From Zingiber officinale (Eukaryota > Streptophyta > Magnoliopsida > Zingiberales > Zingiberaceae): a DNA stretch of 64,000 nt. Shown piece after piece: positions 89-64,000 of the stretch. Each line of letters starts with the position of its first letter. Position 1 is the first letter of the stretch. Location of the stretch: contig NC_056000.1 of NCBI RefSeq assembly GCF_018446385.1, positions 75,030,688-75,094,687 of the forward strand. Reading direction: 5' to 3'. A model generated the notes under the pieces. The model was given only the letters and a program-made list of their open reading frames with translations. It searched no databases and was not told the origin of the DNA. A program made the position numbers and the translations under genes.

Positions 89-2823
89 TGTAGGATCGAT
101 GACGTGCTAGAGGGGGATGAATAGCACTCATGACTTTTTCACTAGTTTCAAAAAACATAGAATAATGTAGTAGAATAAAGAACAAGTAAAACAAAGCTAA
201 CACCTTTGGTTTTACTTGGTTCGGAGCATGTAACAACTCATACTCCAAGGCTCGCGATCGTTGATCGCTTTCGTTAGGCAATCTTCTATCAATTCATAAA
301 AGATTTATAGATATGCAAGTACAAGTATTAAAACTAAAGTATACTGACAACAGAGGATTAGTATTTGTTCAGTGATTGTCGGAGCAGCAGCTAAGTGTCG
401 TTGAATCATCTCGGAGCAGCGCACACATAAGATGATAGTTCTAAATGTGTTGTAATTGTTGTTCGAAGCCGCTGGTCGACCCTCCTTTTATAGCCGAGCC
501 AGACTTGATCCAGATCCACTATTGGGATCATTTTTTGACTAGAAGTTGATCGATCGATCGATCTAGGTGTTCGGTCGACTGAACCCTCTGAACCTGCCTA
601 GCTTCTCGTCCACATGCTTCTGCTCAGATAAGAGTCTTCATTCGATCGATTGATCTCGTCATTCGATCGACCAATCTCTAGCTCATCTGGTCTGATCAAC
701 TTGGCTTGACCACTTCGATGCCTATCCACTGTTCGGTTAACTGAACCCTAGGTTCGGTCGATCGATCCCTTGGTCAAATCCGATCAGCTTGCTGGAAATC
801 TGATACTTCTATTTGAGTGTTCGGTCGACCTATCTGGACATTCGGTCAAGGCCGAATCTAACCCTGCAAAAAGTGTTAGTCTCTTGCAAAATAGAGTTAG
901 ACAAATAGCAAATAAAGAAATATGAAAGAATAACTTTTAACAGCCTCCGGACTGTGCAGTTTTGACTTTTAGATTTTCTTCGAAAACCCTATGTTGAATC
1001 GACGCATACTGTTCCCTCAACGGGGAACACACCCTCACCTACTCCTCTCAGGAGAAGTTACCTATTGACAGACCGGTCCTCTAGACTAACTAGACTTTTG
1101 CTCAATACCCAAGACTTCAGGTCTTCATGCTGGACGCCCACTCTACGACCCATTCAGACTTTCGCATGGTCCGCGATCACCAGGATTTTCACCTAGAGTC
1201 CCTGACTCTAGGATTTCACCCAAAGCGCTCGATCTGCCAAGACTTTCCACCTAGGGTTACCATCCCCTAGAACCTAGGGTTACCTCCCCCTATGATTTTT
1301 CATAACCTAGGGTTACCACCCCTTAGGACCTAGGGTTACCTCTGTTGGTGCGGTTAGCACTAATGGTCTAACTCAGATTTTGATGAATGACAAAGTATGT
1401 TAAGTTAGTTTTGTTATTATCTAACACTTTTACTAAGTGTGCAGGAGAAATTCAGCTAGGTCGACGGGTCGACAGGATAGCTAGTAGCTACGTCGATGGA
1501 TTGATCGGATAGTTGGCACAAAGCCCAACTAGGTCGATGGGCCGATCGGATAGCTGGTATGAAGTCTAGCTAGGTCAACGGGCTGATTGGATAGTTGCAC
1601 AAAGTTCAGACTGGTCTACAGGCTGCCCGGATGTCTGGCAAACGACAAGTGAAGGTAAGTCACTAGAGGAGAGTGACTGTGAGGATGCGTCCCAATTGAG
1701 GGACAGTAGGCGTCGGTTCAGTTTAGGTCCATTTGAGATCCCTAAACTGAGACCTTGACTAGTTCATGGTCTTGGGAGGACAGAAACTAATTACTCTATT
1801 TATTATATTTGTGCTAACACTTGTCTTGCAAGGTATTTGGACTAACACATTTGTTGCAGGGTAAGAAAACAAGCAAGGGAGCAAAGCTGGCTTCGGGTGA
1901 ACGGTACCCAAGGGCACCCTCCATGGCTATGGAAGGCGCCTCGGTACTGTTCATGGAAGGCGCCCGTCGCGGATAAAATTTGACCGGTTCACAAATAAGG
2001 TGCAACAAAGTCAAGATAAATTTTATCCCATTGGAGGCGCCTTCCATGCTTATGGGAGGCACCCTCCAAGACTTTTTATAAGGCAGTCTCAAGGAGGCAT
2101 TGGAAGAACAATAAGATACAAGCTATTGTGCATATTTCGGCCTCCGACCGCTCCCGGTTATTGCTGTGACACTACTGCAAAGCTGTGTGTCTGATGACTA
2201 CTCCGAGGAGTTCCAATCACGCTCGACAGATAGACTTCAACACAAGTCGCTATCATTTATATCTTTGAAAGTGTTGGTAACATTTCTTTTTGTACTTAAT
2301 TACTACAAAAGGATAAGTGTAGGGTGTTGCACTTGGCCTAACTTTTCTTGTACTTGATTCTATCTTCTGGGGGTACAGAAGAGGTTTTTAGTGGATTGCC
2401 CATCAATAGGTCCGCAGGACCTGGGCCTTGGAGTAGGAGTCGCCGAAGGCTCTGAACTAAGTAAAAAATCGCTCATGTTTTTCTGGTGCTTTCTTATTTA
2501 CTTTCCGCCGTGTACTTGTTTAAACCCAAAAAGAAGCATTTTAAAAACCACGTGATTCAACCCCCCCCCCTCTCACATGCATCACGATCCAACAATCTCC
2601 CCCTAGGGTTTTCCATAACCTAGGGTTACCACCCCTAGGACCTAGGGTTACATCCCCTTAAGATTTTCCACCTGCCTAGTATCCATTAGGACTTTTGCCT
2701 AAGAATACTTAGAACTTTCTTGCAAGCTCAATCACACTTGTTAGATAACAAGACAACTTAACTTTGAACCCTTTCCCATTATCAATACATAGATTCAATC
2801 GTTTAGTGCTCTCTGCACCAATA
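89..2823 (-). mobile_element. solo LTR, minus orientation, with a second solo LTR inside
   Basis: Begins TGTAGGATCG and ends CACCAATA. The flanks are gctaa (84-88) and gctga (2824-2828), a 5-bp target duplication with one difference. Read on the minus strand it has GTCGAC/GATCGA-core palindromes (about 550-840) upstream of a TATA box at about 487-493. A perfect 9-bp hairpin with a 3-nt loop lies at 1192-1212. The second solo LTR (1343-2594) interrupts it. The same family recurs at 49852-53839 and 50963-52292. Confidence 0.65.
1343..2594 (+). mobile_element. solo LTR, plus orientation
   Basis: TGTTGGTGCGG at the start and GATCCAACA at the end, flanked by acctc (1338-1342) and atctc (2595-2599), a 5-bp target duplication with one difference. 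Hairpin-forming repeats with GGTCGAC-type loops lie at 1452-1640. Palindromes with a GGCGCC core (about 1933, 1957, 2036) precede a TATA-like tttttataag at about 2074. No internal region or primer site, so this is a recombined single LTR. Confidence 0.7.
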
Positions 2824-11163: not shown

Positions 11164-12316
11164 TGTTGGTGCAAGTTGCACTAATAATCTGCTTTTGGTG
11201 TAGTGTGATGAATAGATTAAAGTGGTGTTTGTCTAACCTTTCTACCAAGTAGGAAGGAGTTGACTGGTCTAAAGGTCCTGACACCAGGATGAAATCCAGC
11301 TAGGTCTGTGAGACCCGATAGCTAGTGCGAAGTTCAGATAGGTCCGTGAGACCTAATATCTAGCGGTAAGTCAGGTTGGGTCTGCGAGACCTGACAACCG
11401 ACTGAAGTCTAGTTGGGTCTGCGGACCTTGCAATTGACAGAAAGACTTGATGGGTCAAAATCAAGTCAAGCGATTGCAATTGGTAAGTGGAGGTAAGCAA
11501 CTGGAGGAGGGATCCAGTGAGAACTCATTCCCCGTTGAGGGAATTGTAGGTTTCGGTCCAGCTTAGGTCCATTTGGGAAACTTAAGTTGAGGCCTTGACT
11601 AGATCCTGGTCTCGAGGAGACAGAATCTAATTACTACTATTGTTTTATTATGCTGTGTCAACTCTGTTTTGCAGGGTAAATATATTTTCTATCTGGACTA
11701 ACCTTTTTTGTAGGGAAGAAGCTGCTGAAGAAAAAGAGAGTTCGGGTGCTCGGACGCTCGGACCAGGCTAGCCCGGGCGAGTGTCGTTGGCACCCGGGTG
11801 GTCTGAGCGCCTGGAGTCAGTCTAGGCGCCCAGACCCAAAAATTCATCCAAAAAGCTTATGTGGAGCGTGTCGAGTGGTAGAGTCACATGATTTAGGCGT
11901 CCAAAGGGGTTCCAGGCGCCCGGAATGACCTTATATAAAGGCCTTCAACCAAGAGCTTCAATACAACAATTGCTACTACTTTCACTCTTGCTCTATGCTC
12001 CGAAAAAGCTCTTGCGACACTATGATGCTCCTCCGACAATCGACGATCAAGATTTTCTTACTTTCTCTGTCGTTGGCAGCATTGTTTGTTAATTCTTGTA
12101 CTTAACTTTTGTAATCATTTGAGTTATTAGTGGATTACCTAACGAAAGTACTCGACAAGTATGAGCCTTGGAGTAGGAGTCGTTGAAAGCTCTAAACCAA
12201 GTAAAACTTGGCTTTGTTAGTGTTGTCTTTTATTCTTCCGCTGTGTATTTCAATTTAATTCACTCTCGATTTTCAATGATGCTATTCACTCCCTCTAGTG
12301 TCTTTCCGGTCCTACA
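11164..12316 (+). mobile_element. solo LTR, plus orientation
   Basis: 1153 bp, TGTTGGTGCAAG to GGTCCTACA, with exact target duplications atgac at 11159-11163 and 12317-12321. Four hairpin units lie at 11296-11436. GGCGCC/GCCCGG palindromes (11740-11925) are followed by a TATA box (ttatataaag, 11931-11940) and a transcribed-type 3' part. It is the intact reference copy for the fragment at 29-3590. Confidence 0.88.
11740..11940 (+). promoter_or_regulatory. LTR promoter: palindrome cluster plus TATA box
   Basis: Several GC-rich palindromes (cores GCCCGGGC and GGCGCC, for example at 11771, 11826 and 11914) lie within 200 bp of ttatataaag at 11931. The same order, palindromes then TATA, recurs in other LTR families of this window. 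Transcription would start about 30 bp further on. No factor can be named from the sequence. Confidence 0.5.
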
Positions 12317-19639: not shown

Positions 19640-19704
19640 AGTGGTATCAGAGCCTGACAGCCTCAGAAGGACTAACCGTCGTCTGAAGCACTAAGATCAA
19701 GACA

Positions 19705-20964: not shown

Positions 20965-21790
20965 AAAATAAAGTGATATGGAGAATTAAACTGGTATGTT
21001 AAACATCATCAGGGTCAAATTAGGAAAATACCAAGAAACTATGTACCACCTAAATTCCTGATTAATTTAGTAGGAAGGAACCTCTATTGGGTTCCAAAAT
21101 ATGTGCTAAACTAATCTCTTAAAATTAAAAGCTTTATAGAGAGAAAATTAAACATTTTCTTTATGAAGGCTTTGTCTAAGGAAGTGGTTGTTGCTCCAAT
21201 AACCAAGAAGGCCTAGTGCCTCGCCACGACCTGGAAGCTGAAATATTGAAACAAAAATGTTTAATTAACTTTATGAAAAAACATTAAAAGTAGAATTAAA
21301 ATGCTTTGAAAGTGTACAAACATTTTTTTAATGTTTCTTTGGATTTTTAGAATTTTTTTTAACTTAAAAAAATATATTTTAACTTAGAAAATTCTCATAA
21401 CACTTGAATAATGCTTTGAAAAATTAATCAAATAATGTTTCTTTATTTAAAAAAAAATGCTTAGAAATTTCTTTTTTTTTAAAAAAAACATTTTTACTTA
21501 GAAATTCCTTTTGAAATTTCTAAAAAATTATTGTGCTTAGAAATTTTTTCTATCTTAAGAACTTGCTTCTCCGTTTTTGCTGTGATCAAAGGGGGAGAGA
21601 AAAGTACAAGTTTAGGGGGTTAGGAAATTAACAATTAAAATTTTAATATTTTTTTCTCTAAACTGTGTTACAATTTATTTATTGCAAATTTATGCTATAC
21701 TTGTTAGTTTAGTAATTTTCTTAAAATTACGTTTGTCTATTTTTAACCCTAACTTGAATTTGCGTTGATGCACATCAAAAAGGGGGAGAT
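20965..21790 (+). mobile_element. 3' noncoding internal region of element A
   Basis: Decayed coding-like sequence first (HQGQIRKIPRNYVPPKF and NLYWVPK in one frame, 21006-21105). A block at about 21150-21250 is conserved in elements B, C and the solo LTR at 25245. AT-rich DNA rich in 'cttagaaatt' follows, then the polypurine tract. No pol. Confidence 0.6.
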
Positions 21791-22885: not shown

Positions 22886-24133
22886 GTGTCTTTTGCTCGA
22901 CTTCCTGTGCTCCTAAACTCCTACACACTTAGACACAAGGTTAAATATAATATGACCTAACTTAATTTGTTTGATCACATCAAAACAACCTTGGGGTACC
23001 AATAATCTCCTCCTTTTTGATGTGAGCAACCCAAGTTAAGCTAGGGTAAACAACTATAAATTTAGAACAATAAATTTTGCAATAAAGTGAAAAAAGTAAA
23101 GAAAAACTTTAAGCTACCTCCCCCTAGACTTAATTCTCCCTTCTACCCCTTTGATTATATAAAAAAATGGGGTAAAAAAAAAAAATCTGATGGTAACGTT
23201 TATAAAAACTCTGATTTTCAAATAATTTTGGAAAAGTTTATCAAGATTTGTGAAAATACTGAAAATAATTTTGATAGCACTAAAAATGGAATAGATTTTT
23301 TTAAAAAAATCTAAGTAAAAATTTTTGTGTAACAATAAATAATTTTCTCAGTTAAACAAAATTTTAAAAACTAATTTTTGTAAAAATTTTGGTAAAGTAA
23401 ATCTGATACTTAAAAAAACTTTAAGTAAAAAATTTCTAAGTAAAAAAAAATCTAAGGAAAAAAATTCTAAGTTATTTTAAAAAAATTGTGCAACATATAA
23501 AATATATTTTGGTAAAGCACAATTTTAAAAAAACTTTAAGTTTTAAAAAGAATGAGATTTTTTTTTAAATTAAATAGATTTGTATAGAAAAATTTAAGAA
23601 TTTTTCAAAAAAAATGAGTAACTATTCAAAACATTATCTAATTTAAATTTTAATGCTTTATCAGTTAGTCAATTAAATATTTTATTTCAATATTTAGCTT
23701 CTAGATTGTGGCGAGACACTAGGCTTTCTTGGTTATTGGAGCAACAATCACTTTCTAGACAAAGCTTCATAAGGAAATTAAATGTCTAATTTTCTCGCTG
23801 AAAGCGCTAAGTCTAATTAAAGTTCAAGTTAAACAAGACTTTGGAACCCAATATAGGTTCTAGCCAACTGGATTAATTAAATATTTTTTAGGAGCATATT
23901 TCTTTGAAAATTTTCTAATTTATCCTTTGTGATATTTAAAATACCAGTTCAAATTATATCTTCTAAAACTTGTACTATATATGCATGTATGATTTTTCAA
24001 GTTTTTTTATTTCTTTTTGTAAATTGTCATTTTCTAGTTTTAATATATCAAAATCTTCTAATGGACAAGATTTTGCTAGAATTACTTTTAATTCTTTAAT
24101 TTTTTTTTCTAATTTACAACAATTTTTGGATAA

Positions 24134-33014: not shown

Positions 33015-36000
33015 TGTTGGTCCCTTTGGAGGTCAGCAAGAGGAGAGGGGTGAATTGCCCTGAAAAAAATAAATCTAACTTTTCTCAGATTTTCAACTAA
33101 ATAACAAACACTTGTAATAAAAAAAACAGAGACTCATTAAAAGAAAATAGACACAAGGGATTTACTTGGTTTGCAATCAGAAAATTGCTAATCCAAGACG
33201 AATACGACGTACTATCTGATGATCTCCTTCGGGCGGAGTAGTCTCTTTACAACATTGACAGCACAGACAGAAAAGTAAAGCACAGAGAAACTGATTACAA
33301 GTGAAGTAAATAAACTGTGTAAATCAGTGCTATATTTATAGCACTGTTCGAGGCGCCCCGAAGGGTTCCGGGCGCCCTGGGGGGATAAAACTTTTTCCCC
33401 CAACGTTTAGATTGAGTCAAACCTCGATCTGGTCAAAATCCACTTCCGGACGCTCGAAATGGATCCGGGCGCCCGGACCACTTAAGTCAACCCAGTTGAC
33501 TTTTTGTGGTCTGGTTCAGCTCGTCTCGGTTCGGGTCTTCTGTTCTGGCTCCGCTAGCTTGGGTGATCTCGGCCATCCGGAATAGGGCTCACCCGAACCC
33601 AAGTTCCGGCCTTCTCCTCGAGCAGCATTCCTTCCCGGTTTCTCGTCCCTCGAACGTCGCGTACATTCTTCTCGTCCACTGGTGTACTCTTTCGCGGTCA
33701 CCTCGCCCCTTGGACGCACCGAGCCCATCGGCTCTCTCCTCGTGCCGTCCTTCTCGTTAGCCGCGTCTTTCGCTCGATTTCCTGTGTTCCTAAGCTCCTG
33801 CACACTTAGACACAAGGGTTAGATAAAACATGACCTAACTTAACTTGTTTGATCACATCAAAACTCTTTGGGGTACCAACAATCTCTCCCTTTTTGATGT
33901 GAGCAACCCAAGTTAAGATAGGGTAAACATATGCAATAAAAATAATTAATTTGTAAATAAGTCCAAAAGATTTTTCAATTTAAAGAATGTATACCTCCCC
34001 CTAGACTTAACATTCTTCTCCCCCTTTGATCACATAAAAATGGGGTTCCTTTGAATAAGTTTAAGGTAAATTCTAATTTAAAGAAACTATAAGTGTTAAA
34101 AAAATTTCATAAGAGAGAAAAAAAATAAAGCAAATTGCAATAAAAAAATTTTCTAACTTAAAAGAAATTTCGAAGTGTTTGACAAACATAATTTTTAAGT
34201 TTCAAATTAAAAAATTAAGTTTCAAACATAATTCAGAATTTAGAAGAAATTTTCATAAGTAAAAAAAATATTTTTGAATATGTTTTCTAGAACAAATTAA
34301 ATAACTCTTTTAAAGCATTAAGTGATTTAAATTAATGTTTTTTTAGTCAGTCAATTAAACTTTTCATTTCGATACTTGACTTCTAGGCAGTGACGAGGTA
34401 TTAGGCCTTCTTGGTTATTGGAGCAACAATCACTTTCTATACAAAGCCGCATAAAGAAATTACATGTTTAATTCTCTTGCTGAAAATGCTAAATCTAATT
34501 TTGATTTTTAAATTAAGCAAGTTTTTAGAACCCAATAGAGGTTCCTTCCTACAGGGTTAATCAAGTATTTTCTAGGTACATAGGCTTTTGCTATTTTTCT
34601 GATTTGACTTTGGTGAAACCTATAGTACCAGTTTAGTCCTCTATAATTTTTAAAACCAGATATTTGAACAGGTAGAGTTTTTCAATCTTTCTATTTCTTC
34701 TTTTAATTTTTCATTTTCAAGTTTAATCTTATCAAAATCCTTTAATAGACATGATTTTGCTAAAGTTCTTTTTATTTCTATGTTTTCATTTTTTAATTCA
34801 GTATTTTTACCTTTTAATTTGTACATAGGCTTAGCCATAGCCTTAATACCAAAATAAAGTTGATCAGGAGGTAAGAGACATACCTCACTTACCATATCAA
34901 ACTTGAAGTCTGACTCTCCCCCTGCTTCGCTGGATTCATCTGACGTCCCTCCCCCTTCATTGATGTTGGGTTCTGATGTACTTTGCCCTTCATAGCTTGC
35001 CATCAGTGTTATCCCGACATATTCTTGAATCTCGGACTCAGATGATGAACTATCGTCCCAAGTTGCTTTTAGATTCTTGTGCTTCTTGGGTATCTTGACT
35101 TTGTCCTTTTTTAGTTCTGGACATTTTTCTTTTAAGTGTCCTTCCTTTTCACAATGGTAGCAACACATCATTCTTCTATTTTTTGGATTATTTTTATTCT
35201 ACATTTTTTAAATTTATTAGATTTAAAAAACTTTTTAAAATTTCTTACCATATATACTTCCTGATCCTCTTCTGATTCTGACTCGGGTTCATCCTTCTTG
35301 GTTACGTTTAGTACGATCATCTGGCTTAATTCCATTGTTGTCCCTACACACCTGGTTTCATGTAATTCAAGAGTAGAGAACAATTCTTCTAAAGTACTTA
35401 CCTCCAGGTCTTTTGAAATATAGTAGGCGTCGACGATTGATGGAGTTCTAGGAAACGCATTGAGTGCGTAGCGTATGGTATCCCGGTTTGTTACCGTTTC
35501 ACCGAGGTTCTCGAGACCGGTAATTAATTCCTTTACCTTCGCGTGTAGATCGTCTACCTTCTCACCTTTTTCCAGACGGATGTTCGTCAGTCTGTTCTAG
35601 AGGATGTCTCTTCTTGCTAGCTTGGCTTCGGATGTTCCTTTGTGGAGCTCCAGGAACTTCTCCCAGAGTTCTTTGGCCGATGAGTAGCTTCCGATGCGGT
35701 TGACTTCTTGAGGCGGCAACACGCTCAGCAGGTGATATTCCGCACTGTTGTTCGCTACGGAATCATTCTGCTCCTTCTTTGTCCACTGGCTCTCTTCTTT
35801 TTCTTCTCCATTCTGATTCGTCAGAGCTACAAAGCCATACTTTATAATTAACCGAATTTCAAAATCAGTTTTCAGAAATACCTCCATACGACGCTTCCAG
35901 TGTGCGAAATCCCCCTCGAATTTTGGTGGAACAATGCTTGGTCCGACCATCTCGTTGCTTTGATCGACGGTTAGTCCTCCTAAAGCGCCTTGCTTTGATA

Positions 36001-36902
36001 CCACCTATTGGTCCCTTTGGAGGCCGACAAGAGGGGAGGGGTGAATTGCCCTGAAAAAAATAAATCTAACCTTTCTCGGATTTTCAACTAAATAACAAAC
36101 ACTTGTAATAAAAAAACAGAGACTCATTAAAAGAAAATAGACACAGGGGATTTACTTGGTTTGCAATCAGAAGATTGCTAATCCAAGATGAATACGACAC
36201 ACTATCTGATGATCTCCTTCGGGCAGAGTAGCCTCTTTACAACGTTGACAGCATAGACAGAAAAGTAAAGCGTAGAGAAACCGATTACAAGTGAAGTAAA
36301 TAAACTGTTCAAATTAGTGCTATATTTATAGCACTGTTCGGGGCGCCCCGAAGGGTTCCAGGCGCCCTGGGGGGATAAAACTTTATCCTCCAACGTTCAG
36401 ATCGAGTCAAACCTCGATCTGGTCAAAATCCACTTCCGGGTGCCCGGAATGGTTCCGGGCGTTCGGACGGTCCGGGTGCCCGGACCACTTAAGTCAACCC
36501 AGTTGACTTTTTATGGTCCGGTTCCACTGCTCCGGTTCAGCTCGTCTCGATCCGGGTCTTCTATTCCGGCTTCGCTAGCTTGGGTGATCTCGACCATCCG
36601 GAATAGGGTTCACCCGAACCCAAGTTCCGGCCTTCTCCTTAAACAGCCTTCCTTCTCGGTTTCTCGTCCCTTGAACGTCTCATACGTTCTTCTCGTCCAC
36701 CGGTGTACTCTTCCGCGGTCACCTCGTCCCTCGGACACACCGAGCCCGTCGGCTCTGTCCTCGTGCTGTCCTTCTCGTTAGTCGCGTCTTCCGCTCGATT
36801 TCCTGTGTTCCTAAGCTCCTGCACACTTAGACACAAGGGTTAGACAAAACAAGACCTAACTTAACTTGTTTGATCATATCAAAACTCTTTGGGGTTCCAA
36901 CA
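33015..36902 (-). mobile_element. complete gag-only LTR retrotransposon (element B, TR-GAG type)
   Basis: Left LTR 33015-33881, polypurine tract reverse complement (atctctccctttttgatg) at 33882, gag 34650-35950, primer site GTGGTATCAAAGC on the minus strand near 36004, and right LTR 36006-36902. Exact target duplications gaatg are at 33010-33014 and 36903-36907. Each LTR has a TATA box (minus, about 33329 and 36325) with GCCCGG/GGCGCC palindromes behind it (33348-33480, 36341-36485). The internal region is 2.1 kb without pol. Insertion is in the D LTR. Confidence 0.9.
34650..35950 (-). pseudogene. gag of element B, frameshifted
   Basis: The ATG at 35950 begins MVGPSIVPPKFEGDFAHWKR. The capsid-like region is open to a stop at 35597-35599 (RRDIL*). 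The same frame then continues RLTNIRLEKGEKVDDLHAK and AYYISKDLEVSTLEELF before a further frame change. The zinc knuckle CYHCEKEGHLKEKC, KHKNLKATWDDSSSSESE, an acidic glycine/serine segment and a leucine-rich coiled coil are open from 35171 to 34650. Domain order equals that of A and C. At least one stop and one frameshift make it nonfunctional. Confidence 0.85.
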
Positions 36903-37932
36903 GAATGTTTTCGTTGGACAATCCACTAATAGTTCGAATGATTACAAAGTTTAGTATAAGAACAAAAAATAATGTTACTGACAACAAAGAAAATAAGAAA
37001 GTCTTGATCATCGGTTGTTAGAGGAGCTTCACAGTGTTGTAGGAGCTTTTTCAGAGTACCGCGCAAGAGTGAAAGTTGTAGTAGTTGGTATTTTGATGCT
37101 CGTGGTCGAAGGCCTTCATATAGACCAATTCCGGACGCCTAGAACCCCTCTGGGTGCCTGGGCTACATGGCTCGGCCAGTCGATGCACTCAACCTCAGCT
37201 TTTGGATGAAATTTTGGGTTCGGGCGCCTATACCAACTATGGGCGCCTGGACCAACTCCGGGTGCCCAAACTGCCGAGGTACCCGCTGCACCCGCCCGAG
37301 CATGCTAGTTCGGGTGCTCGGACTAGCTCCGGGCGGCCGGACTCCTCTTTTTCCAGCCTTCTTCCTGGAAAAAAAAACTTAGTCCTAGGCAGCAAAAATA
37401 AGTATATCCTACAAAATAGAGTTAGCCCAATTCAATAAAATAGTAGTAATTAGACCCTGGCTCCCCGAGACTATGATTTAGTCAAGATTTCAGCTTAAAT
37501 TTCCCAAATAGACCTAAGCTGGGCCGACGCCTGCAGTTCCCTCAATGGGCAATGCGTCCTCACTTGATCTCTCCTCCAGTTACTTACCTTCACTTACCAC
37601 TTGCAGTCACTTGACTTGTCTCTGACCCACCAGGTATTCCTACCAGTTGTTAGGTTCACAGACTCAACTGAATTTCGACCGGTTGTCAGGTCCCGCGAAT
37701 CTAACCAGACTTCCCGCCAGATATTGGGCCCCCGCGGACCTATCTGGACTTTCCACCAGCTATCGGGTCCTACGGGCCTAGCTGGATTTCAGCCTGATGT
37801 TAGGTCCTTCAAACCAGTCAACTTCTGTACACTTAATAAAACAATTAGACCATAAAACATTTTAACTTTAAACTTCTTCCCTTGTCATTTATCAAAATCT
37901 GAATTAGATCATTAGTACAAATTACACCAACA

Positions 37933-49560: not shown

Positions 49561-50443
49561 GTTGTACTACTTCCGAAAAAAAATATTTGATGCACTTGAT
49601 TGTTATGACTTATATATCCATAACATATGAGAATAAGAATATGATGATACTAATAATATATGTAGCTCTTCTAATGAATTACATACTTTTTTCTTAAAAG
49701 ATTGTTCATATGTATATTATGTACATTGTTTCGCTTATCGACTTAAACTAGCATTAACGGCAACGGTTGAAAAGATGTATCCATTTGGTTATTCATCTCA
49801 AAATTTAATTCCATTTGTAATATCATTAACGCATCTCCTAAATGTCATATTTGTAGGATTGAATGGGGGATTTCATGTTCTTTTTTTGAAAAACAAAGTA
49901 AACACAACACAATAATAAGAAAGAAAACTAAGCAATCTAAAACCAAGTCGACACTTTTAATTTTACTTGGTTCGGAACATGTGAAGGCTCCTACTCCAAG
50001 GCCTACACTCGTTGAGTGTTTACTTTGGACAATTCACTATCAATTCGAAGAATTACAAAAACAAGTGCAATTACAATTGAGTAGATTAAGTGCAATAAAT
50101 GGAAAACTATACCGACGACTTAGAGGGTTAGAGATGTGAGCTTTCGATCGTCGAAATAACGTTACGGCTTGTCTTTGGAGTAGCGCACAGGAGCAAAAGA
50201 TGTTCGAATTTGTTGTCTCGAAGTGTTGGTTGAGATTTCCTTTTATAGACGAGTTTGACTGATCCAGATCCACTAATCTTGGGATCAGTGTTTGACTCGA
50301 TGTTGATCGGTCAATCGATCTCCTTGATCGATCGACTGATCCTTCCTAAATTAGCCCGACTTCCCATCCAGATGCTACTGCTTCAGATGAGTCTTCATTC
50401 GGTCGACCGATCCCGTCATTCGATCGACCGATCCCGCTGTTCA

Positions 50444-50857
50444 ATTGACCGATCCGTCGATGATTCTCGTCTTTTCTGGTCCGATCAATCTGGCCCGATC
50501 AAGTCATTGCTTGTCCACCGTTCGTTCAACTGAACCTGACGTTCGGTCGACAGATCCCTTAGTAGAGGCTGCCTATGAGCTTGATCTGATCACTGGGGTT
50601 CGGTCGACTGATACCAACATTCGGTCGTCCGATCAAGTAAAAATTGACCGATCCATTGATGATTCTCGTCTTTTCTGGTCCGATCAATCTGGTCCGATCA
50701 ATCTGGCCCGATCAAGTCATTGCTTGTCCACCGTTCGTTCAACTGAACCTGACGTTCGGTCGACAGATCCCTTAGTCGAGGCTGCCTATGAGCTTGATCT
50801 GATCACTGGGGTTCGGTCGACTGATACCAACATTCGGTCGACCGATCAAGTAAAAAT
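50444..50857. repeat. tandem duplication of about 200 bp in LTR U3
   Basis: 50444-50642 and 50643-50857 are near-identical copies ('gatgattctcgtcttttctg' through 'ccgatcaagtaaaaat'). The second has an extra copy of 'tggtccgatcaatc'. Each carries several GTCGAC-type palindromes, so the duplication doubles the palindrome count upstream of the TATA box. Confidence 0.85.
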
Positions 50858-50962: not shown

Positions 50963-52292
50963 TATAGGATCGAGATGCGCTAGATGGGAGGTGAATAACG
51001 CAAGTGACTTTTTCACATTTTCGGAAAGCACAAAATAAAACGCAGTGGAGAAAGGAAGATAGCGGAAGTAAAACAATCGATGACCAATATTGGTTTTACT
51101 TGGTTCGAAGTCTGTGACGACTCCTACTCCAATGCCCGCGATTGTTGATAGTTTTTGTTGGGCAATCACTATAAGATCGAAAATTTTTATAGAAATTGAG
51201 TACAAAAATGAGTACAACAGATTTATAATTGAAAGTTACACCGACAACTTTAAGGATCTAGAGAGTTGTGCTTTCCATTGTCGAAGTCGCGTCACTCGGT
51301 CGTCGGAGTCACGTTGCAGAGTTATGGGATCATTTTTATAGCAACGCGAAGGAGAGTAATCGCGAAGAATGAGTGCATCTAGCCCTCTGGTCGAGCACTC
51401 CTTTAATGGACTGCTGAAGGCGCCTTCAACCCCCTTGAGGGTGCCTCCAGCTCAGATGTCTATCCCCAAATCCACGGTACCGATAAGTTTCTCTTTCTAC
51501 GAACTTCATATGTTCGAAGGTGCTTTCAAGCTCATGGAAGGCATCTTCCATCCGGTATCCAAGGCGCCTTTCGATGCTTTGAAGGAGCCTTCGCACCTCT
51601 CATCGCGAGCCTTCGGGCAAGCCACCTGAGGAGCCTCCAACCACCCCGGAGGCGCCTTAAACATTGTTCATCCGAGCTTAAAATGTGCTTTTTCACTCCC
51701 TACAAGATACGTTAGTTTAAAATACCAAACATACCCTATAAAATAAAGTTAGAACAATAAAATATGAATAATAGAATTTCTTAACAATCTCTGAATTGTC
51801 CCGTTCCGACTTTCAGATTCTTTGAAAACCTTAGATCGAACCAACGCCTACTGTTCCCTCAACAGGGAACGCATCCTCACCTACTCATGTCAGCAGAAAT
51901 TACCTTTTGCTAGATTGGTCTTCTAGACCGTTTGGACTTTTCCTCAGCGTCCGAGACGTCAGAACTTCATGTTAACGTTCGATCCTGACCCGTCCAATCT
52001 TCCACCTGATGTTTGCGATCCCCAAGATTTTCACCTAATGTCCTCGACACTAGGATTTCGCTCAACGTCCTCGACCCGCCAAGGCTTTGCCCAGCCCCGG
52101 ACTAGGACTTTAATGCCTAACCGCAGCTAAGACTTTCTACCTGCTTAGAATCCACTAGAACTTTTACCTAAGACAACTTAGGACTTTCCTGCAAACTTAG
52201 TTCAACTTATTAGATCACAAGATAACTTAACTTTGAACCCTTTGTCATAATCAAAACTTAGGTTCGATCGTCTGGTGCTTTCTACACCAACA
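50963..52292 (-). mobile_element. solo LTR, minus orientation
   Basis: 1330 bp, TATAGGATCG (terminal TG mutated to TA) to CTACACCAACA, with exact target duplications ctgac at 50958-50962 and 52293-52297. On the minus strand a TATA box lies at about 51329-51335, with AAGGCGCCTT-type palindromes at 51417-51656. Related to the LTR it sits in. Confidence 0.82.
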
Positions 52293-53734: not shown

Positions 53735-54400
53735 CTGTGCACTCAATCACACTTGTTAAACAATAAGATGATTTAACTTTAAACCCCTTTACCATTATCA
53801 AAACACAGGTTCAATCATCTAGTGCTTCCTGCACCAACAATACTGAGTTGCATTATACTTAAAAAATTAAAGTTGTGTATATGGTAGCTAGTGAACATGA
53901 TACTGGTAGATGATGTAATCAAATTAAAAAATTTTTACAGCCTGGAAAAACTCGTTGGAGTAAATAATTTTGACTCAATCTATAACATGATTGATATGTA
54001 TAATTCTATGATTACCGTGTTAGAAAATATGATAGATAATAGGTATTTTAACTCAATCCATGGTGAAGCTAGTGGTTTGTTGATTGCGATAAAGTCTTTT
54101 GATTTCATATTCATATTACACTTGATGCAAAAAAGATAATGGGGATAACAAATATGCTTTGTCAAGCATTGTAAGAGAAATCTCTAGATATTTTAAATGC
54201 AATAAACTATTTTTCAACTATTAAAACTTTGTTTCATACTTTGAAAGAATAAGGATTTGTTCTTCTACTTAGTTATACGAAAGAAGTTTGTGCCAAGTAT
54301 GACATTGAGATACCTCACATAGAAGCTCCTTATAAATTTGTAATAGGTTATTCTTGTCAACAAAATGACTCAATCATAGTTAAGCACTATTATAACCTAT

Positions 54401-55818: not shown

Positions 55819-56836
55819 TGTAGGACCGTTAGATTCGATAGAGGGGGGGGGGTGAATATCGATTCGAAAATCTCGAGTTAAAACACAGCGGAAATGTAAG
55901 GAAGTAAAGAGATGAACACTGTTGATTTTTACTTCGTTCGGAGCCTGTGACGACTCCTACTCGAAGGCTCGTACTCCTTGAGTACTTTCGTTGGGCAATT
56001 CACTAGCAATTCGGATAATTACAATTTACGTACAAATATTGCTAATGAAAGGAAGGAAAACAAAGCTAACCGACAAACAATAAATTAAGAAGGAGAGCCG
56101 GAGTGAGTCATCGGAGCTTTGTGAGCGTCGTTGGAGCGCAGAGCAGCAGAGTGATTGGATTCAGAGTTCTCAGAAGACTGATGTTTTGAAGCTCCTGCCT
56201 GGGGCTTCTTTTATATGCTGCTCCGGGCGCCTGGATCCCTTCCGGGCGCCTGGAATGTGACGTAACACTCCCAACCAGCATTCTCCAAGTGTCAACGTCG
56301 TCCTGGGGATAAAACTTGCCTCCGGGCGCCCGGACCTCCGGGCGCCCGGACCCCTCTTCTCCAGAAAGTGTATATCCTGCAAAAAAGAATGTTAGCACAG
56401 TTTATATCGCATAAGAAGTATGACTTAGATTCCGCTTTCCGAGACCGGAATCTAGTCACGATCTCGACTTAGATATCCGAAATGGATCTAAGCCGGATCG
56501 ACGCCTAATGTCCCCTTCCCGGGAACGCGTCCTCACAGTCACTCCCCTCCAGTGACTTACCTCACTTACCTGCCAGACGTCCGGTCAGCCCGTCGACCCG
56601 TCTGGACTTCTCGCCAAGCGTCCGGTCAGCCCGTCGACCCGCTTGGACTTCTCGCCAGCTATCCGGTCAGCCCGTCGACCTAGCTGGACTTCTCGCCAAG
56701 CGTCCGGTCAGCCCGTCGACCTAGCTGGACTTTTCCTGCACACTTGATCAAAGTGTCAGACAACAACACAACTAACTTAACCTATTTGTCATTCATCAAA
56801 ACCTGGGTTAGACCGTTAGTGCTACCCGCACCAACA
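55819..56836 (-). repeat. left (3') LTR of element G
   Basis: 1018 bp, TGTAGGACCG to GCACCAACA. On the minus strand four 41-bp hairpin units (56728-56573) come first. Palindromes with GGCGCC cores (56350-56222) and a TATA box in 'catataaaag' (about 56207-56216) follow. The open frames at 56108-56398 are the LTR read in a chance frame. Confidence 0.9.
56573..56728 (-). repeat. hairpin array: four 41-bp units with covarying arms
   Basis: Each unit is a 7-nt arm, the constant 19-nt TCCGGTCAGCCCGTCGACC, a 7-nt second arm and the 8-nt spacer acttctcg. Arms are CCAGACG/CGTCTGG (56573, 56599), CCAAGCG/CGCTTGG (56614, 56640) and CCAGCTA/TAGCTGG (56655, 56681). All are perfectly complementary within the unit although they differ between units. 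Unit 4 pairs a CCAAGCG left arm with a TAGCTGG right arm and is mismatched. The 'loop' can itself pair GGTC with GACC. Confidence 0.85.
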
Positions 56837-58422
56837 ATCTCCCCCTTTTTGATGGAATGACAACCTGGTTAAGTTAGTGAAAGCATATGTACGAAACAAC
56901 ATGCATTTGTGTGGTTTTAAAGTTAGTTTGTGTTTTCAAATTGGTTTAGCTAACTTAACCACCTAACCCTTCTCCCCCTTTGGCATTCATAAAAAAGTAA
57001 GCAGGGGTAAACAAGCATAGTGTAGAGTAATAAAAAGTTTGGTTAAAAAAATTCAAAGATATTGATAAAATTAACAGCAAAAAAGATAGTCAAGTTGACT
57101 TGGGGGAGTTTAAGCTTTTGAAAATTCGTTTAAAGCATTTAGCTTTTAGCTTTTAGAAAGCTAGTTAAGTTTTGATTTTCAAACACAAGTTTTCAAAAAC
57201 CAGAATTCCAAAACTAAGTTTGAAAAATTTATTTTTCAACACTAAGTTTGTAAACGATTTAATTTAAAACTTAAGTTTTGACAGTGATTTAAGTTTGAAA
57301 AAATCTAACTTTCATAATTTTTAACACTTGAGTTTTTGCAAATCAAATTTCAGTTTGTAAACATTGATTTTGAACTTTACTTTTAGTTTTCAAAGGAGTT
57401 TGGTAGAACTAATTTTGATAAAGTAAAAATAATTAAATCTAATTTTCAAAAATCAAAATTTTAAAGTTCAAAAGTACTATTTTCAAAACCATGGTTTAAA
57501 ATACTTGAAAAGTTGAGTTTTCAAAGACTAAGTAAAAAGGATAAAAAGTTTATGATTTAAAACAAAGAATTTTCACAATTTTAAGCAAGTTGATATTGAA
57601 AATTGATTTTCAAAAGTAAGGAAAGTGATTTTGAGAACCTTAGTTTGTAAACTTAAGTTTTGAAAAATCTAATTTCCACAATTTTCAAAACTAAGTTAAA
57701 TCTAATTTTCAGAATCAATTTTCAATAAAAAGTAAAACCCAATTCTTAAAAACAACTTAGTTTTATAAGAGTTAGTTTTCAAAAGTAGGTTTAAGAAATT
57801 TTTAGGAGAACATTTTTCAAACAAGATTTAAAATATTTTATATAAAGGAAAATTTTTAATTAATTCCTCCCCCTGAACCTGACATCACTTTAACCAGCTG
57901 TCTAACCAATTAGGTACTAACTAACTATCAGAAGATAGTAGCTTTCACTTGGTTAGTCAGATTAAGTTAATTACAACCAGTCAGTGTTTGACTTGACTGA
58001 TGAACTTTAATCTGATTAATATCTGAATTGTATTTAACGTCCAAACTTATGTTGATGCACTGAAATTAGCATCTTAAGTCCGGACAGTTGGCCTATGCAT
58101 CTCACCCCTTTCTATGTTTGTCAAACACAAGCAAGGTAACCCTAGGGTGTTGGTGAGATGCTAAAAAACTAGTCCTATGGGTACATGCTTTCTAAGGATG
58201 TAAACCTAGTCTAAGGCAAAAAACTGTTTTTGAAAGTCTAAAAATGGAAATTTTGAAAACAAACAAGTTTAGCCTATAAGTTGATAAAATTATTTTTGAT
58301 TTTTTTTTGAAATTTCCTAGTCTATTGAGATAGAACATATTCAATGTAAGTTTGAAATGTCACTAGATAAATCCAAAATATTTTACAAATAGTGTAGCTA
58401 CAGAAGTAGGTCATCACTAAAG
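56837..58422 (-). mobile_element. 3' noncoding region of element G
   Basis: Starts with the polypurine tract. 57050-57850 is a low-complexity field of 'ttttcaaa/aagtttg' words. 57870-58220 is more complex and holds inverted-looking 'ctaactaactatcagaagatagtag' but no protein domain. No open frame of note. Confidence 0.6.
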
Positions 58423-59650
58423 CTACTGCGATGATGAAGGGGGTGGTCCAGATCCCAAGGATCGAAGAAGTGCCATCATCTCAGTGTGGCGGGTGTCCCC
58501 GGCAGCTCGTAACTCGGCAACCTCTCGCCGTATGTCCCGATGAAAATCGGAGTTCTCCTGCTGGAGACTCGCCATGGCTCTCTCTAGTCCGGTCATACGG
58601 TCGGCTAGAGTGCGGGGAGCGTGTCGTGGTGCTCGAGCTGGGGGTGGTGGTGGAGCCGGTGCGGCTTCCTCCGGAAATAGTGCGAGCATGAACTCGTCTA
58701 TCTGTGCGTCGATGGTGCTGTGCCCCCTCCGCCAAGTCATAGTCCCGTCATCTCTATCTACACGGATGCCGGCTAGGAAAAGTTCCGAGAGGATATAACA
58801 TCGAACTCGGCCATATGGGCAACGTCTCCTCTAGTGACATCAATGTGCACGAGGACATGGATGTCAGAATGTGACCAAATGGCATATGGACTCGACTGTC
58901 AGTCACGTATCCGGCTGCGTAAATGATGGTCGAGAAGATATGTAGGCTAATGTCAATTTCTAACCTATGAATCAGGGCATAAAGTAGGAATGAATGGAAT
59001 GGGCGCATCACAGCGATGTCCCGAGTGGTCAGTGGTAAAATGCAAAGAACTACAACCCTATAAAGAGCGTAGTCCTGGACGCTAAGTTCTACTGACCTAA
59101 ACTGTGTCACAGTGGGATCTCTCTCTCCCCCAAAAAAATACGAATACATCGTATCGAGAGTAATATGTGAGTAGGGATCGTCGAACGGTAGATCCCTCGG
59201 AGGATAGCACAAAAAGGAGCAAGTAGAAGGACGCAACTCTAAAAACTCTCGGATAGTCGTAGGGGAAAATACGATATCAGTACTTGTAGCCCTAGTGGTA
59301 TAGGTGAAGTCGTCTACTTTTACTAGGTTATTGCAAAATTCTGCACATAGACTTATGTTTATTGGACTGGTACATTCTACAAGGTTCCTTAAATTGTAGT
59401 GACCTATAACCTCTAAGGCAGAGGGACATGACCTTAGGAAGAACGCTCTATCTATACAGGTAGTCCTAATGGCCTTATAGATGGTGGACTCAAACTTAAT
59501 CCTAAGTTCGTCTGTGGGAAACCTAGGGTCTGTACTAGCATTGGAGGGTCCAGCACCAGTATTTGTTCGTTTCCTACTATATATAAAAAAATTTAGAAGA
59601 CAACAAAAAAATATTTTAGAGAGGGGAAGAATATTTTACCGAGGAGCCAT
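58423..59650 (-). pseudogene. extra gene of element G: plant transposon-protein-like, with one intron
   Basis: Same strand as gag. The ATG at 59650 starts MAPR. A 63- or 66-bp AT-rich intron (about 59639-59577, GT to TAGTAG) separates the 11-nt first exon from a long second exon. That exon reads GAGPSNAS, CIDRAFFLRSCPSALEVI, VFSPTTIREFLELRPST, HSFLLYALIHRLEIDISLH and VHMPFGHILTS. I see similarity in style to the 'putative plant transposon protein' domain (PF20167), from memory of that family. After two frameshifts near 58850 and 58780 the end is FLAGIRVDRDDGTMTW, a proline/alanine-rich stretch and a coiled coil (LERAMASLQQENSDF, REVAELRAAGDTRH) to a stop at 58423. Position before the 3' LTR is that of the env-like gene in SIRE elements, but no membrane segment is obvious. 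Confidence 0.6.
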
Positions 59651-59784
59651 CGAAAAATATAGATTTGACGACCTCGGTTGAATCGCAACAGCGTCTTTAA
59701 TTTAGAGTACTTTCGCACCGAGGTTCAAAGTGAACCTTGGCAAAAGTGAGAATGAGTGGGGCAAAGGTTGGGGCGCCTGCTGCC

Positions 59785-59860
59785 CTTATTTATAGGGGAC
59801 TCCGGCGCCCGGACCCTTCCGGCGCCCGGGGTTGATTTAGGGCGGGGCGCCCGGAACCCC
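59785..59860 (-). promoter_or_regulatory. internal promoter of the extra gene in element G
   Basis: On the minus strand, three GGCGCCCGG-type palindromes (59856-59803: centred at about 59848, 59823 and 59806) precede CTATAAATAAGG (59795-59784). This lies about 135 bp upstream of the ATG at 59650. The arrangement copies the LTR promoters of this genome but sits inside the element. Confidence 0.55.
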
Positions 59861-59879
59861 TTCCTTTTTTTTTTGAGAT

Positions 59880-60655
59880 TTGAAATTGATTTAAGTTTTA
59901 AAAATTTTAAGTTAAAGTTTTGAAAATAATTTTTAAGTTTAAAATTGAAATTTTTAAAATTTTGCAAATAATTTAAAACAAATTTTTAAAAATAATTTTT
60001 AAGTTTAACATCAAATTTTTAAGAATAATTTTTAAGTTAAAATTTTGAAAGTAATTTTTAAGTTTAAAAGCAAATTTTTAAGTGAAAATTTTGAAAATAA
60101 TTTTTAAGTTTAAAAAGAAATTTTGAAAATAATTTTTAAGTTTAAAAACAAATTTTTAAGTTAAAATTTTGAAAGTAATTTTTAAGTTTAAAAACAAATT
60201 TTTAAGTTAAAATTTTGAAAGTAATTTTTAAGTTTAAAAACAAATTTTTAAGTTAAAATTTTGAAAGTAATTTTTAAGTTTAAAAACAAATTTTTAAGTT
60301 AAAATTTTGAAAATAATTTTTAAGTTTAAAAACAAATTTTTAAGTTAAAATTTTGAAAGTAATTTAAGTTTTATTCATCTCACCCGATTTATATTATCAA
60401 TCAAGGAATCCTATGATTTTGTGAGATGAAATTAGTTAGATTACAGAGTTTTGTTTTAACTTGTGTTAGATTCAGACTTAGCTTTGGTTTCCACAAATAG
60501 GCATTCTTCGGATAAAATTTTAAGTTTAAAAACAAATTTTTAAGTTAAAATTTTGAAAATTATTTTTAAGTTTAAAAACAAATTTTTAAGTTAAAATTTT
60601 GAAAATAATTTTTAAGTTTAAAAACAAGTTTTTAAGTTAAAATTTTGAAATTAAT
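59880..60655. repeat. 46-bp AT-rich satellite with an embedded 145-bp duplication
   Basis: The unit 'tttttaagttaaaattttgaaa' + 'gtaatttttaagtttaaaaac' recurs every 46 bases (clear at 60144, 60190, 60236) from about 59900 to 60365, and again 60517-60655. Between and after lie two near-identical copies of a complex segment (about 60363-60515 and 60652-60805, from 'aatttaagttttattcatctc' to 'cattcttcggataaa'). Confidence 0.85.
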
Positions 60656-60799
60656 TTAAGTTTTATTCATCTCACCCGATTTATATTATCAATCAAGGAA
60701 TCCTATGATTTTGTGAGATGAAATTAGTTAGATTACAGAGTTTTGTTTTAACTTGTGTTAGATTCAGACTTAGCTTTGGTTTCCACAAATAGGCATTCT

Positions 60800-61540
60800 T
60801 CGGATAAACTTCTAAGCTTGGTGAGTCACAAGGACATCATTAGAAGTAACCAACCTTTCGAGGTTTTCCGAATAGTCCTATCCACGAAACTTAGTACTAA
60901 ATCTTGGTCTAACTGGTTAGGATTCGTTTAAGGGTAGCTTCGGTCAGTTCCACTTGGCCAAATGCACCAGATCGAAACCATATCTTTCTAGACATGCGAT
61001 GCCCAAGCTTCCCTAACGTACTATCATCCAAAAACTTCACCAGTACCATGAGTCAAGTTAAACTTGGTCTCTCTTTAACTAATCCTAATTACCCTGCCGG
61101 GTTAGTTTGTTTTGGGTTACCCTATCGGGTAGGTTAGTTTTGGAGGTGCCAGCTATTCTGGAGCCTAATTATTGGCCATTAATTTAGATTTTGGGTTTGT
61201 GTCGATTCTTTTTATAGTTATAATCAACTTGGTGATAATCTAAATTTTGTTGAGTTTTGAATTTTGATTTTAATTTATATTTTAGTTTTTGATCTGATTT
61301 ATTCAAGTTTATATAATGTATTTTATCTTTAGGTATATAGAATTGATTAAGTCCTACTTGCGTGGTTAAGCACGCTTTCGGGACCCAAGCTTGTTTGGTT
61401 GCTTTGTGTTGGGTTAATAATGATTTAAAGGTTTTGTTTGAGTTTGACTTATATCCAAGTCCGGTTTTATTATAGCATGCCTTTTGGTTATTTAGAATTA
61501 AATCTAAATTTTTAGATCTTGTTGTGAATTTTTCCAACAA
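60800..61540 (-). pseudogene. gag-to-protease linker of element G
   Basis: From 61540 the minus strand reads MLEKFTTRSKNLDLILNNQK, GLGYKSNSNKTFKSLL, QAWVPKACLTTQVGLNQFYI and PKDK, then loses its frame. The same segment, including the noncoding part to 60800, is present in element D (31829-30790), where it leads into integrase. In G it leads into the satellite instead. Confidence 0.6.
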
Positions 61541-61545
61541 TTCTT

Positions 61546-62827
61546 TTAACTTATTAATTTCATTTTTAATGATAAATTCTCCTCCTCAAGTGTTCGATCT
61601 TGAGTTGGATTCGAATTTTTTAATTGTTCCTTGAGGTTTTGATTTTCCTCAAGAAGAGATTTACTTTCATTTTCCAATTTAACTAATTTTTTATTTAAAC
61701 ACGAGATAATTCTAAAGAATTTACGATTTAAGTTTAGGTATACCTCTTCGGAACCTTCGGAAACGAGTGCGGACTCGTGGCTCGATTCGGGTTCGGACCC
61801 ATCTTCCGATTCCTCTGATTCGTCTTCCGTTTCAGCTTCGTGAGCCATCAGCGCGAGGTGACTTTGGTGCTTTTGCCTTTCTCCCTCCGATTCGTCTGAG
61901 GAGGAATCGTCCCATGTTGCTTTGAGGGCTTTCTTCTTTGTTGACTTTGGTTTGTCAAGTTTCAATCTTGGGCATTCATTCTTGTAGTGCCCTTTTTGTT
62001 ACATCCGAAACATGTGACATTTCTTGAGTCGGCTGGTGAACTGATCTTCTGAAGCTTTTCTTTTTCCTGGTGAATATTTTCCTTACCAGGTTCACCAGTG
62101 TTCTTCGTCTTAGAGTCTTGATCGGAATCTTCTTCGATTCGGGTTTGTTCTTCTTTTCTTTAGAGGAACCTGCAAATAAAGCTACACCTTTCTCGACCCC
62201 GGCGTTAGTTTGCTCATGAAGTTCTAATTCACGTAAGAGTTCATCCAATTTTAATTTAGATAAATTTTTGAAATTTTGTAGGCATCTACAATTGATGCCC
62301 ACAAATTATTTCATGGAAAAGCATTTAACGCATACCTTATTAAGTCTCGGTTCTCCATTTGGTGGCCTATCGCGTGGAGACCGTTGAGGATATCTTTGAT
62401 CCTCGCGTGAGCTGACTTGCCGTTTCTCCTTCCCGCATTTTTATATTAAAATTTTATTTAACAAGAAATCTCTTTTTGTTACCTTCGCATCGCTTGTTCC
62501 TTCGTGCAGCTCGATCAGTTTATCCCAAAGCTCCTTAGCGTTTTGATGCGGTCCGACTCGGTTCAGTTCTTCTCGTGTTAGTCCGCAGTGTAGAGTATTG
62601 ATGGCTTTGTTTTCAATTGATGCCTTTTTCTTTATATCATTTGTCCAGTCTTCAGGGTCTAGTATGTTCCCGGAGTTGTCTACTGGAATTTTGTAAGCCA
62701 TTGTGACGCTCATCCATTGGTCGTAGTCTGTCTTCATGTAGACCTCCATTCTCCTCTTCCAGTACGAAAAATCATCCCCGTTGAATAGAGGAGGACGTAC
62801 TGTGCTGAAGCCTTCTTGTTGAGACAT
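61546..62827 (-). pseudogene. gag of element G, frameshifted
   Basis: ATG at 62827 (MSQQEGFSTVRPPLFNGDDF). Capsid-like part: YWKRRMEVYMKTDYDQWM, LTREELNRVGPHQNAKELWD and KLIELHEGTSDAKV down to 62441. After breaks, KLDELLRELELHEQTNAGVE (62260). A CCHC knuckle CFGCNKKG...HYKNEC is broken by a one-base indel at about 61990. From 61965, KALKATWDDSSSDESEGE, an acidic segment and a coiled coil (LNKKLVKLENESKSLLEENQ) run to 61546. It is the closest relative of the Gag of D. Confidence 0.85.
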
Positions 62828-63068
62828 CTTATCCTGCACACACTAAATTAACTGGAAAAAGAAAATCCCAAGACTTCGTCTTGGATTAGCAGTTCGGGAA
62901 AAAATAGAAGCTCTAAGTTGGTGTTGTACCAATTTAGATTTTAAATGCAACGAAAAAAAATCTTACAAAAAGATAATAATATCAGTTTGGAATTAAAAAA
63001 AAATTATTTCACCCCCTGTCTGATTGGTGGTTGCACCAAATCAGAGCGGTACCTGCTCTGATACCACT

Positions 63069-64000
63069 TGTAGGACCGTTAGATTCGATAGAGGGGGGGT
63101 GAATATCGATTCGAAAATCTCGAGTTAAAACGCAGCGGAAATGTAAGGAAGTAAAGAGATGAACACTGTTGATTTTTACTTCGTTCGGAGCCTGTGACGA
63201 CTCCTACTCGAAGGCCCGTACTCCTTGAGTACTTTCGTTGGACAATTCACTAGCAATTCGGATAATTACAATTTACGTACAAATATTGCTAATGAAAGGA
63301 AGGAAAACAAAGCTAACCGACAAACAATAAATTAAGAAGGAGAGCCGGAGTGAGTCGTCGGAGCTTTGTGAGCGTCGTTGGAGCGCAGAGCAGCAGAGTG
63401 ATTGGATTCAGAGTTCTCAGAAGACTGATATCTTGAAGCTCCTGCCTGGGGCTTTGGAATGTGACGTAACACTCCCAACCAGCATTCTCCAAGTGTCAAC
63501 GTCGTCCTGGGGATAAAACTTGCCTCCGGGCGCCCGGATCCCCTCCGGGCGCCCGGACCCCTCTTCTCCAGAAAGTCCTTCTCCTGCAAGAAAAGGTTAG
63601 TCCGAGGCAAATGTACCCTGCAGCAAAGAATGTTAGCACAGTTTTATCGATAAGCAAAGTATGACTTAGATTCCGTCTTTCCGAGACCGGAATCTAGTCA
63701 CGATCTCGACTTAGATATCCGAAATGGATCTAAGCCGGATCGACGCCTAATGTCCCCTTCCCGGGAACGCGTCCTCACAGTCACTCCCCTCCAGTGACTT
63801 ACCTCACTTACCTGCCAGACGTCCGGTCAGCCCGTCGACCCGTCTGGACTTCTCGCCAAGCGTCCGGTCAGCCCGTCGACCCGCTTGGACTTCTCGCCAG
63901 CTATCTGGTCAGCCCGTCGACCTAGCTGGACTTCTCGCCAAGCGTCCGGTCAGCCCGTCGACCTAGCTGGACTTTTCCTGCACACTTGATCAAAGTGTCA
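63069..64000 (-). repeat. right (5') LTR of element G, truncated by the window end
   Basis: Near-identical to 55819-56836. It lacks about 43-50 bp corresponding to about 56208-56255, which in the other LTR hold the TATA box and two GGCGCC palindromes. It also has an extra 'ccttctcctgcaagaaaagg' region near 63576. The hairpin array is present at 63823-63977. Confidence 0.9.

Follow-up and report, generated by a model that had tools for sequence, protein, structure and literature searches.

In the literature consulted, palindromic repeats in Sirevirus LTRs are regarded as likely promoter boxes and small-RNA hotspots. In the available portion of PMC2829016, the RM boxes are described as near-constant palindromic repeated motifs of Sirevirus LTRs, present as near-identical copies with mostly a CGG-CCG core; they start 200–400 bp after the junction between the polypurine tract (PPT) and the LTR, close to the TATA box, which follows shortly after. 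In maize Sirevirus LTRs, a palindrome-rich, hairpin-forming region with strong predicted structure is a small-RNA hotspot, according to the portions of PMC5311732 and PMC10760457 that were available. These published palindromic motifs (PMC2829016, PMC5311732, PMC10760457) contradict one statement of the first-pass annotation of the DNA described here, namely that no named plant LTR feature resembles the array of hairpins that it had noticed. Sire and other LTRs are described in PMC3601003 as well, and the accessible part of that paper makes no mention of such an array; among open-licence papers, we found none on co-varying arms in Sirevirus LTRs.

The array belongs to element G of the window (the whole stretch of 64,000 nucleotides that was analysed). 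The first-pass annotation was correct as to the array of this element and is corrected here as to its orientation, which is that of the minus strand. By its PPT, attachment site, primer binding site (PBS), PPT-flanking inverted repeat and gag sequence, element G carries the marks of a Sirevirus (Ty1/copia); the first four of these agree with the definitions for Sireviruses in PMC2829016. The PPT, AGGGGGAG, is located at 56846 on the minus strand and is followed by AT and the TG of the LTR start. The PBS motif TATCAGAGC adjoins the 5' LTR at 63065, also on the minus strand, and the same motif is present at 19643 on the plus strand, beside an LTR of a different type (X). The inverted repeat consists of TTGTCATTCCATCAAAA before the PPT and TTTTGATGAATGACAA inside the LTR (found by eye, with a one-base gap). 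Element G has 6 ORFs of at least 90 aa, of which 5 were searched in Pfam; the 1 match was to a copia-type gag (PF14223), and no pol ORF was recognised. Because only the gag ORF matched a family among the 5 searched, element G looks non-autonomous. Besides its LTRs, PBS, PPT and gag piece, the element contains, in the stretch 56835–63068, long A/T-rich tandem repeats at 59901–60816. Searches of the window with Rfam families at the gathering score, and of viral and genome contig collections with the LTR start, gave 0 matches each. Coordinates are collected in Table 1.

Table 1. Positions in the window of element G, its hairpin units and the related arrays
Feature	Positions	Strand	Remarks
3' LTR of element G	55819..56836	-	start TGTTGG at 56836; lower end approximate
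TATA-box-like sequence	56209..56217	-	~620 nt from LTR start; by eye
RM-type palindromes TCCGGGCGCCCGGA	56319..56352	-	separate from array, closer to TATA box
Unit, arms CCAGACG/CGTCTGG, 19-nt middle	56573..56605	-	exact; last unit in element sense
Unit, arms CCAAGCG/CGCTTGG	56614..56646	-	exact
Unit, arms CCAGCTA/TAGCTGG	56655..56687	-	exact
Mosaic unit, arms CCAAGCG + TAGCTGG	56696..56728	-	first unit in element sense
PPT AGGGGGAG-AT/TG, Sirevirus-type	56835..56846	-	at 3' LTR junction; motif as in PMC2829016
Copia-type gag piece	62441..62839	-	PF14223, E 2.6e-07, interior of element G
PBS GGTATCAGAGC, Sirevirus-type	63055..63065	-	motif as in PMC2829016
Second copy of four-unit array	63815..63970	-	5' LTR of G, truncated by window end
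LTR A array (LTR at 1343)	1452..1640	+	relative of G, 73% identical over 450 bp
LTR B array (LTR at 11164)	11296..11436	+	relative of D, 78% identical over 435 bp
LTR D array, units CCAGCTA, CCAGATA, CTGGTTA/CAACCGG, TCAGTTG/CAACTGG (sense strand)	37643..37785	-	
K-type array, other arms, AAAGTCC-like linkers	51830..52200	-	limits approximate, by eye

The array at 56573–56728 consists of four 33-nt units of 7 + 19 + 7 nt each, with a period of 41 and with one constant 19-nt middle, TCCGGTCAGCCCGTCGACC, common to all four. Three of these units have differing and perfectly matching 7-nt arms, exactly as first noted. The mismatch noted in the arms of the fourth unit is also real: its arms are those of two unit types, as though an exchange between units had taken place inside the constant middle. 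Units with mixed arms are present, rarely, in other genomic copies as well; a comparison of exchange in the middle with exchange in the linker was indecisive. The second copy of the array, in the 5' LTR, repeats all four units with a single change, which is in a middle.

The first-pass annotation had described arrays in four LTR families of the window. The arrays are there, but the four families are LTRs related to one another (A with G and B with D at the identities given in Table 1). The arms named for LTR D are present (CCAGATA/TATCTGG, and CCAGCTA/TAGCTGG at 37756–37785), and so are those named for LTRs A and B, with some mismatches. A fifth LTR type, K (52292), has its LTR start and A-rich linkers in common with the others and different hairpins; pairing of its own arms looks alike by eye only, and a regular-expression search for K hairpins matched only part of the rows. 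LTR A (1343–2594) is apparently inserted in a K-type LTR, parts of which are found on the minus strand at 2821–2659 and 1246–888. LTRs of type X form pairs at 18551–22888 (94.4% identical) and 33017–36902 (89.5% identical), and their U3 also contains hairpins with paired changes, for example GGACG..CGTCC and GGATG..CATCC. Palindromes of the TCGGTCGACCGA type, which resemble the Vitis RM in the portion of PMC2829016 that was available, are located at 18913–19237, 22157–22484, 50399–50431 and 50813–50845. A small potential hairpin, TTGGTGC-N5-GCACTAA and variants, was found by eye at the LTR start (1343–1365, 11164–11186, 37910–37932, 52270–52292, 53817–53839 and 56814–56836); its pairs are kept across LTR types, partly as wobbles.

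Pairing of the arms exceeds what chance would give, both in the window and in the genome. For the window we used 17 hand-listed units of LTRs A, B, D and G, with the arms next to the core taken by alignment, a set that excluded B and D hairpins of other geometry and all of K. In these units 106 of 119 positions pair, compared with 91.8 (sd 3.0) when 3' arms were swapped; 1 of 100,000 shuffles reached the observed pairing, or 200 of 100,000 when arms were swapped within families only. Genomic LTR copies were found by exact patterns, the commonest of which, 30 nt spanning the PPT and LTR start, has 4,469 exact copies in the genome; a variant has 324 copies and the K variant 354. A set of 91 LTR ends (87 with units) yielded 394 units, in which 2553 of 2758 positions pair, compared with 2116 after arm swapping (sd 17, max 2178, 2000 shuffles). 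When all 200 LTR ends of the A/G types (189 with units) were taken, the arms of 884 units paired with their own partners at 5716 of 6188 positions and, after swapping, at 4757 (sd 26, max 4843, 500 shuffles). The proposed co-variation of arms thus persists genome-wide.

Other properties of the A/G units bear on the same point. For 426 distinct units (of 611), in-register pairing amounts to 89.1% of positions, versus 21–38% when the arms are slid by 1–3 nt, and mutual information is 0.22–0.85 bits at arm pairs 4–7 and 0.01–0.09 at pairs 1–3; the outer CCA...TGG is nearly constant. Pair 5 is found as C-G, A-T or G-C in A/G units, and as T-A in the fourth B/D unit. The dominant arm pairs of the 394-unit set (CCAGCTA 76, CCAAGCG 74, CCAGACG 48 and CCAGACA 40, of 394) are all perfectly Watson-Crick, without wobble. 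The arm-swap, register and mutual-information tests ruled out chance and simple duplication of one palindrome. With regard to location, 133 of 141 unit-bearing LTR ends have the array between a median start at 108 nt (97–330) and a median end at 306 nt, counted from the LTR start.

LTRs of the B/D family have four units each, with four different, matching arms. In 173 units from 45 rows, 1067 of 1211 positions pair, versus 934 (sd 9.5, max 970, 2000 shuffles) with arms swapped within the LTR. In L111 and L123 the U3 carries a different array, in which 6-nt arms enclose 8-nt middles of the TGTNNNAT form; own arms pair at 40 of 48 positions versus 32.8 swapped (13 of 20,000 shuffles) in one of them and at 37 of 48 versus 31.0 (85 of 20,000) in the other, and these LTRs are near relatives and hence not independent cases. 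On the whole, the observation of the array is confirmed as real and strengthened.

At a given array position, both arms vary from lineage to lineage and still match each other. Written as unit types, the commonest array is a b c b d (12 of 142 LTRs, the window G among them), and other lineages have a b f b d or e b e b. Where the arms differ, the second arm nearly always changes likewise at pair 6 of unit 1, at pairs 4, 5 and 7 of unit 3 and at pairs 4 and 7 of unit 5; at pair 6 of unit 5 it follows no more often than not, and at pair 7 of unit 1 it is mostly unchanged. In some A-like copies a T/T mismatch persists at the innermost pair. In a tree built from sequence outside the array, f-bearing arrays adjoin one another; a hairpin downstream reads GA/TC in 9 of 17 of these and GG/TC in 56 of 76 c-bearing arrays. 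A second tree, again with the array left out, was built from 65 five-unit LTRs, of which 28 have c, 13 have f and 24 have neither. On this tree unit 3 requires 2 changes between c and f; a constraint that unites the f rows in a single clade was not rejected (p 0.37), although this is no proof of such a clade. For the position-wise comparison of second arms given above, the second tree offers 1–3 row pairs per position on independent supported paths, too few for significance in a single test.

Inside single copies, we counted 10 concordant double changes versus 7.6 expected for independent arms (P 0.23), based on 536 assigned units of 615, with 79 left out; B/D arms, compared with forms chosen by eye, show 128 C to T and 122 G to A changes. 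Because the arms mutate independently inside single copies, pairing is apparently not kept after insertion, and co-variation is therefore a property of the lineages that multiplied. The first-pass view that arms changing together reflect maintained pairing thus holds between lineages, but not inside copies.

We used wobble counts to compare RNA with DNA, between which the first-pass annotation had left the choice open (U3 RNA or cruciform DNA). A stem in sense-strand RNA tolerates G.U better than A.C, whereas DNA treats both alike. Interior pairs (3–6) were separated from outer pairs for reasons of context symmetry, a choice made when part of the counts was already known; the second sample was drawn later. 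Interior pairs of A/G units show 85 G.U versus 43 A.C on the sense strand (p 0.0003; first sample 55:32, second 30:11) and so favor RNA, whereas outer pairs (78 versus 95) do not, nor does the B/D family (interior 31 versus 34, outer 75 versus 64). For A/G units with a single difference, the interior count is 56 versus 22 (40:13 in the first sample; 16:9 in the second, p 0.23, not significant). Distinct 53-mers give an interior count of 84 versus 43, and resampling of LTRs gives an interior G.U share of 0.58–0.74; for distinct arm pairs the excess is weak, at 36 versus 27 (p 0.31). When each combination of type, pair and state is counted once, the numbers are 13 and 13; because the excess vanishes in this way, amplification of a few lineages could have produced it. 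The flanking LTR sequence has no strand bias (C to T 5.5 and 5.4%, G to A 4.8 and 5.3%). Whole-genome patterns for type b point in the same direction as the interior counts, with 12,897 (C/T, which adds G.U) versus 12,640 (G/A, which adds A.C), each total including the same master.

A hairpin of 8 pairs downstream of the array is found as GGCTTAGA/TCTAAGTC (70), GACTTAGA/TCTAAGTC (16), AGCTTAGG/CCTAAGCT (5) and rarer forms. Its pair 2 is G.U in 82, A-T in 30, G-C in 7 and A.C in 4 of 123 cases, the search pattern permitting only these four states. This pattern may have the look of stepwise change through G.U, perhaps in few events. Strand-neutral folds gave 3 G.U versus 3 A.C cells in X, and likewise in K, whereas in B/D they contained no four-pair helix. 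Local folding, compared with shuffles, showed no consistent preference for sense over antisense, global folding showed no clear one either, and in global folds the arms partly pair across units. An RNAalifold count on X LTRs (G.U 55 versus 15 cells) was set aside, as the structure choice favors G.U and the strand-neutral fold gave 3 versus 3. We also discounted inner-stem G.U counts, which have unequal CpG context, and a count for eight one-step intermediates (G.U 48 versus A.C 15), which was taken from a hand-picked list. In the aggregate, the wobble evidence leans to RNA without proving it.

Selection for RNA folding of the array is the reading that we prefer, at a probability of roughly 0.4, as judged from sequence comparison. 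On this view, the distal U3 of Sirevirus-type (Ty1/copia) LTRs would hold hairpin modules set in a row. In the genomic RNA of LTR elements, U3 is present at the 3' end only, and for this reason there would typically be 3–7 stem-loops per genomic RNA, ~100–310 nt downstream of the PPT, joined by short purine-rich linkers. Selection in active lineages would keep each unit foldable as sense-strand RNA, and the array would offer a repeated scaffold of RNA, whose most plausible partner, as a guess, is the Gag or the reverse-transcription complex of the element; the unit-specific arms would also prevent neighbouring units from pairing with each other. More tentative is the extended proposal that the distal U3 is a modular selected RNA element with mutually non-pairing arms, re-evolved in several lineages and needed for replication or packaging.

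A rival reading is at the level of DNA: the units, upstream of the promoter, would be cis-regulatory boxes of dyad symmetry or DNA prone to form cruciforms, recognised by a dimeric factor or acting through DNA shape. In the available part of PMC2829016, the published Sirevirus LTR palindromes are indeed read as cis-regulatory, and in A/G units the near-constant outer CCA...TGG could represent half-sites; moreover, the commonest A/G arm pairs are purely Watson-Crick, and folding is about equal on either strand. Yet the inner arms vary in sequence and keep their complementarity, a combination that a protein reading the sequence would not require, and the interior G.U excess lies on the sense strand, so that we regard a DNA-level role as rather unlikely. 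Perfect stems could also persist without selection, if in reverse transcription or replication a nascent strand switches to the opposite arm and a change in one arm is thereby copied into the other, a process described for RNA stems in the accessible text of PMC8794818. Such templating would suit the commonest arms, which lack wobble, and unit types b and c, which differ at four neighbouring pairs, including C-G versus G-C. It is nevertheless an unlikely source of the array: concordant double changes are not in excess in the sampled copies, which argues against ongoing correction there, and families whose units have other sequences carry their arrays at a similar position in the LTR.

It is quite improbable that the hairpins matter mainly as substrates of the host, that is, as a source of miRNA-like small RNAs in silencing, even though results on maize Sirevirus palindromes cited in PMC5311732 and PMC10760457, as far as these papers were available, point that way. 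A role of this kind would explain a consequence of the hairpins, not why element lineages keep the pairing. Also, the usual substrates of Dicer-like enzymes are longer than the array stems, which have 7 bp plus a short inner stem.

Where arms change and pairing nonetheless persists, reading of the sequence can be told apart from folding, and with thousands of copies in a single genome the RNA-versus-DNA question becomes testable. If folding in RNA is decisive, plant copia elements would possess a cis-acting RNA feature of which we have found no description, and the array stems could be what host silencing exploits.

Of the described systems, the inverted repeat flanking the PPT in Pseudoviridae (PMC2829016, available portion) has a predicted stem at the 3' LTR junction that is also present here; however, it is one repeat spanning the junction and not an array inside U3. 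The template-switch hairpins in the accessible part of PMC8794818 are alike in having perfect stems with paired changes, but they are defined by mutational origin and are not an element family. The maize Sirevirus hotspot, as described in the available text, shares with the present arrays the hairpin-forming clusters of LTR palindromes and a high sequence variability, whereas its cited motif, CACCGGACNNNGTCCGGTG, is one repeated palindrome, and the same text presents no analysis of co-variation. The RM boxes are similar in being palindromic and repeated, in their upstream place in the LTR and in belonging to Sirevirus elements with the same PPT and PBS. They differ in sequence, since near-identical copies with a CGG-CCG core are not what the array consists of, and in place, since the array lies at a median of 108–306 nt, not at 200–400 bp with a TATA box soon after, the TATA-like sequence of G being ~620 nt from the LTR start. 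RM-type boxes (56319–56352, TCCGGGCGCCCGGA) and the array are both present in element G. As judged from the available description in PMC2829016, the variable-arm array is distinct from the constant-sequence RM boxes: its arms differ between neighbours, enclose a middle of 16–19 nt and lie nearer to the LTR start.
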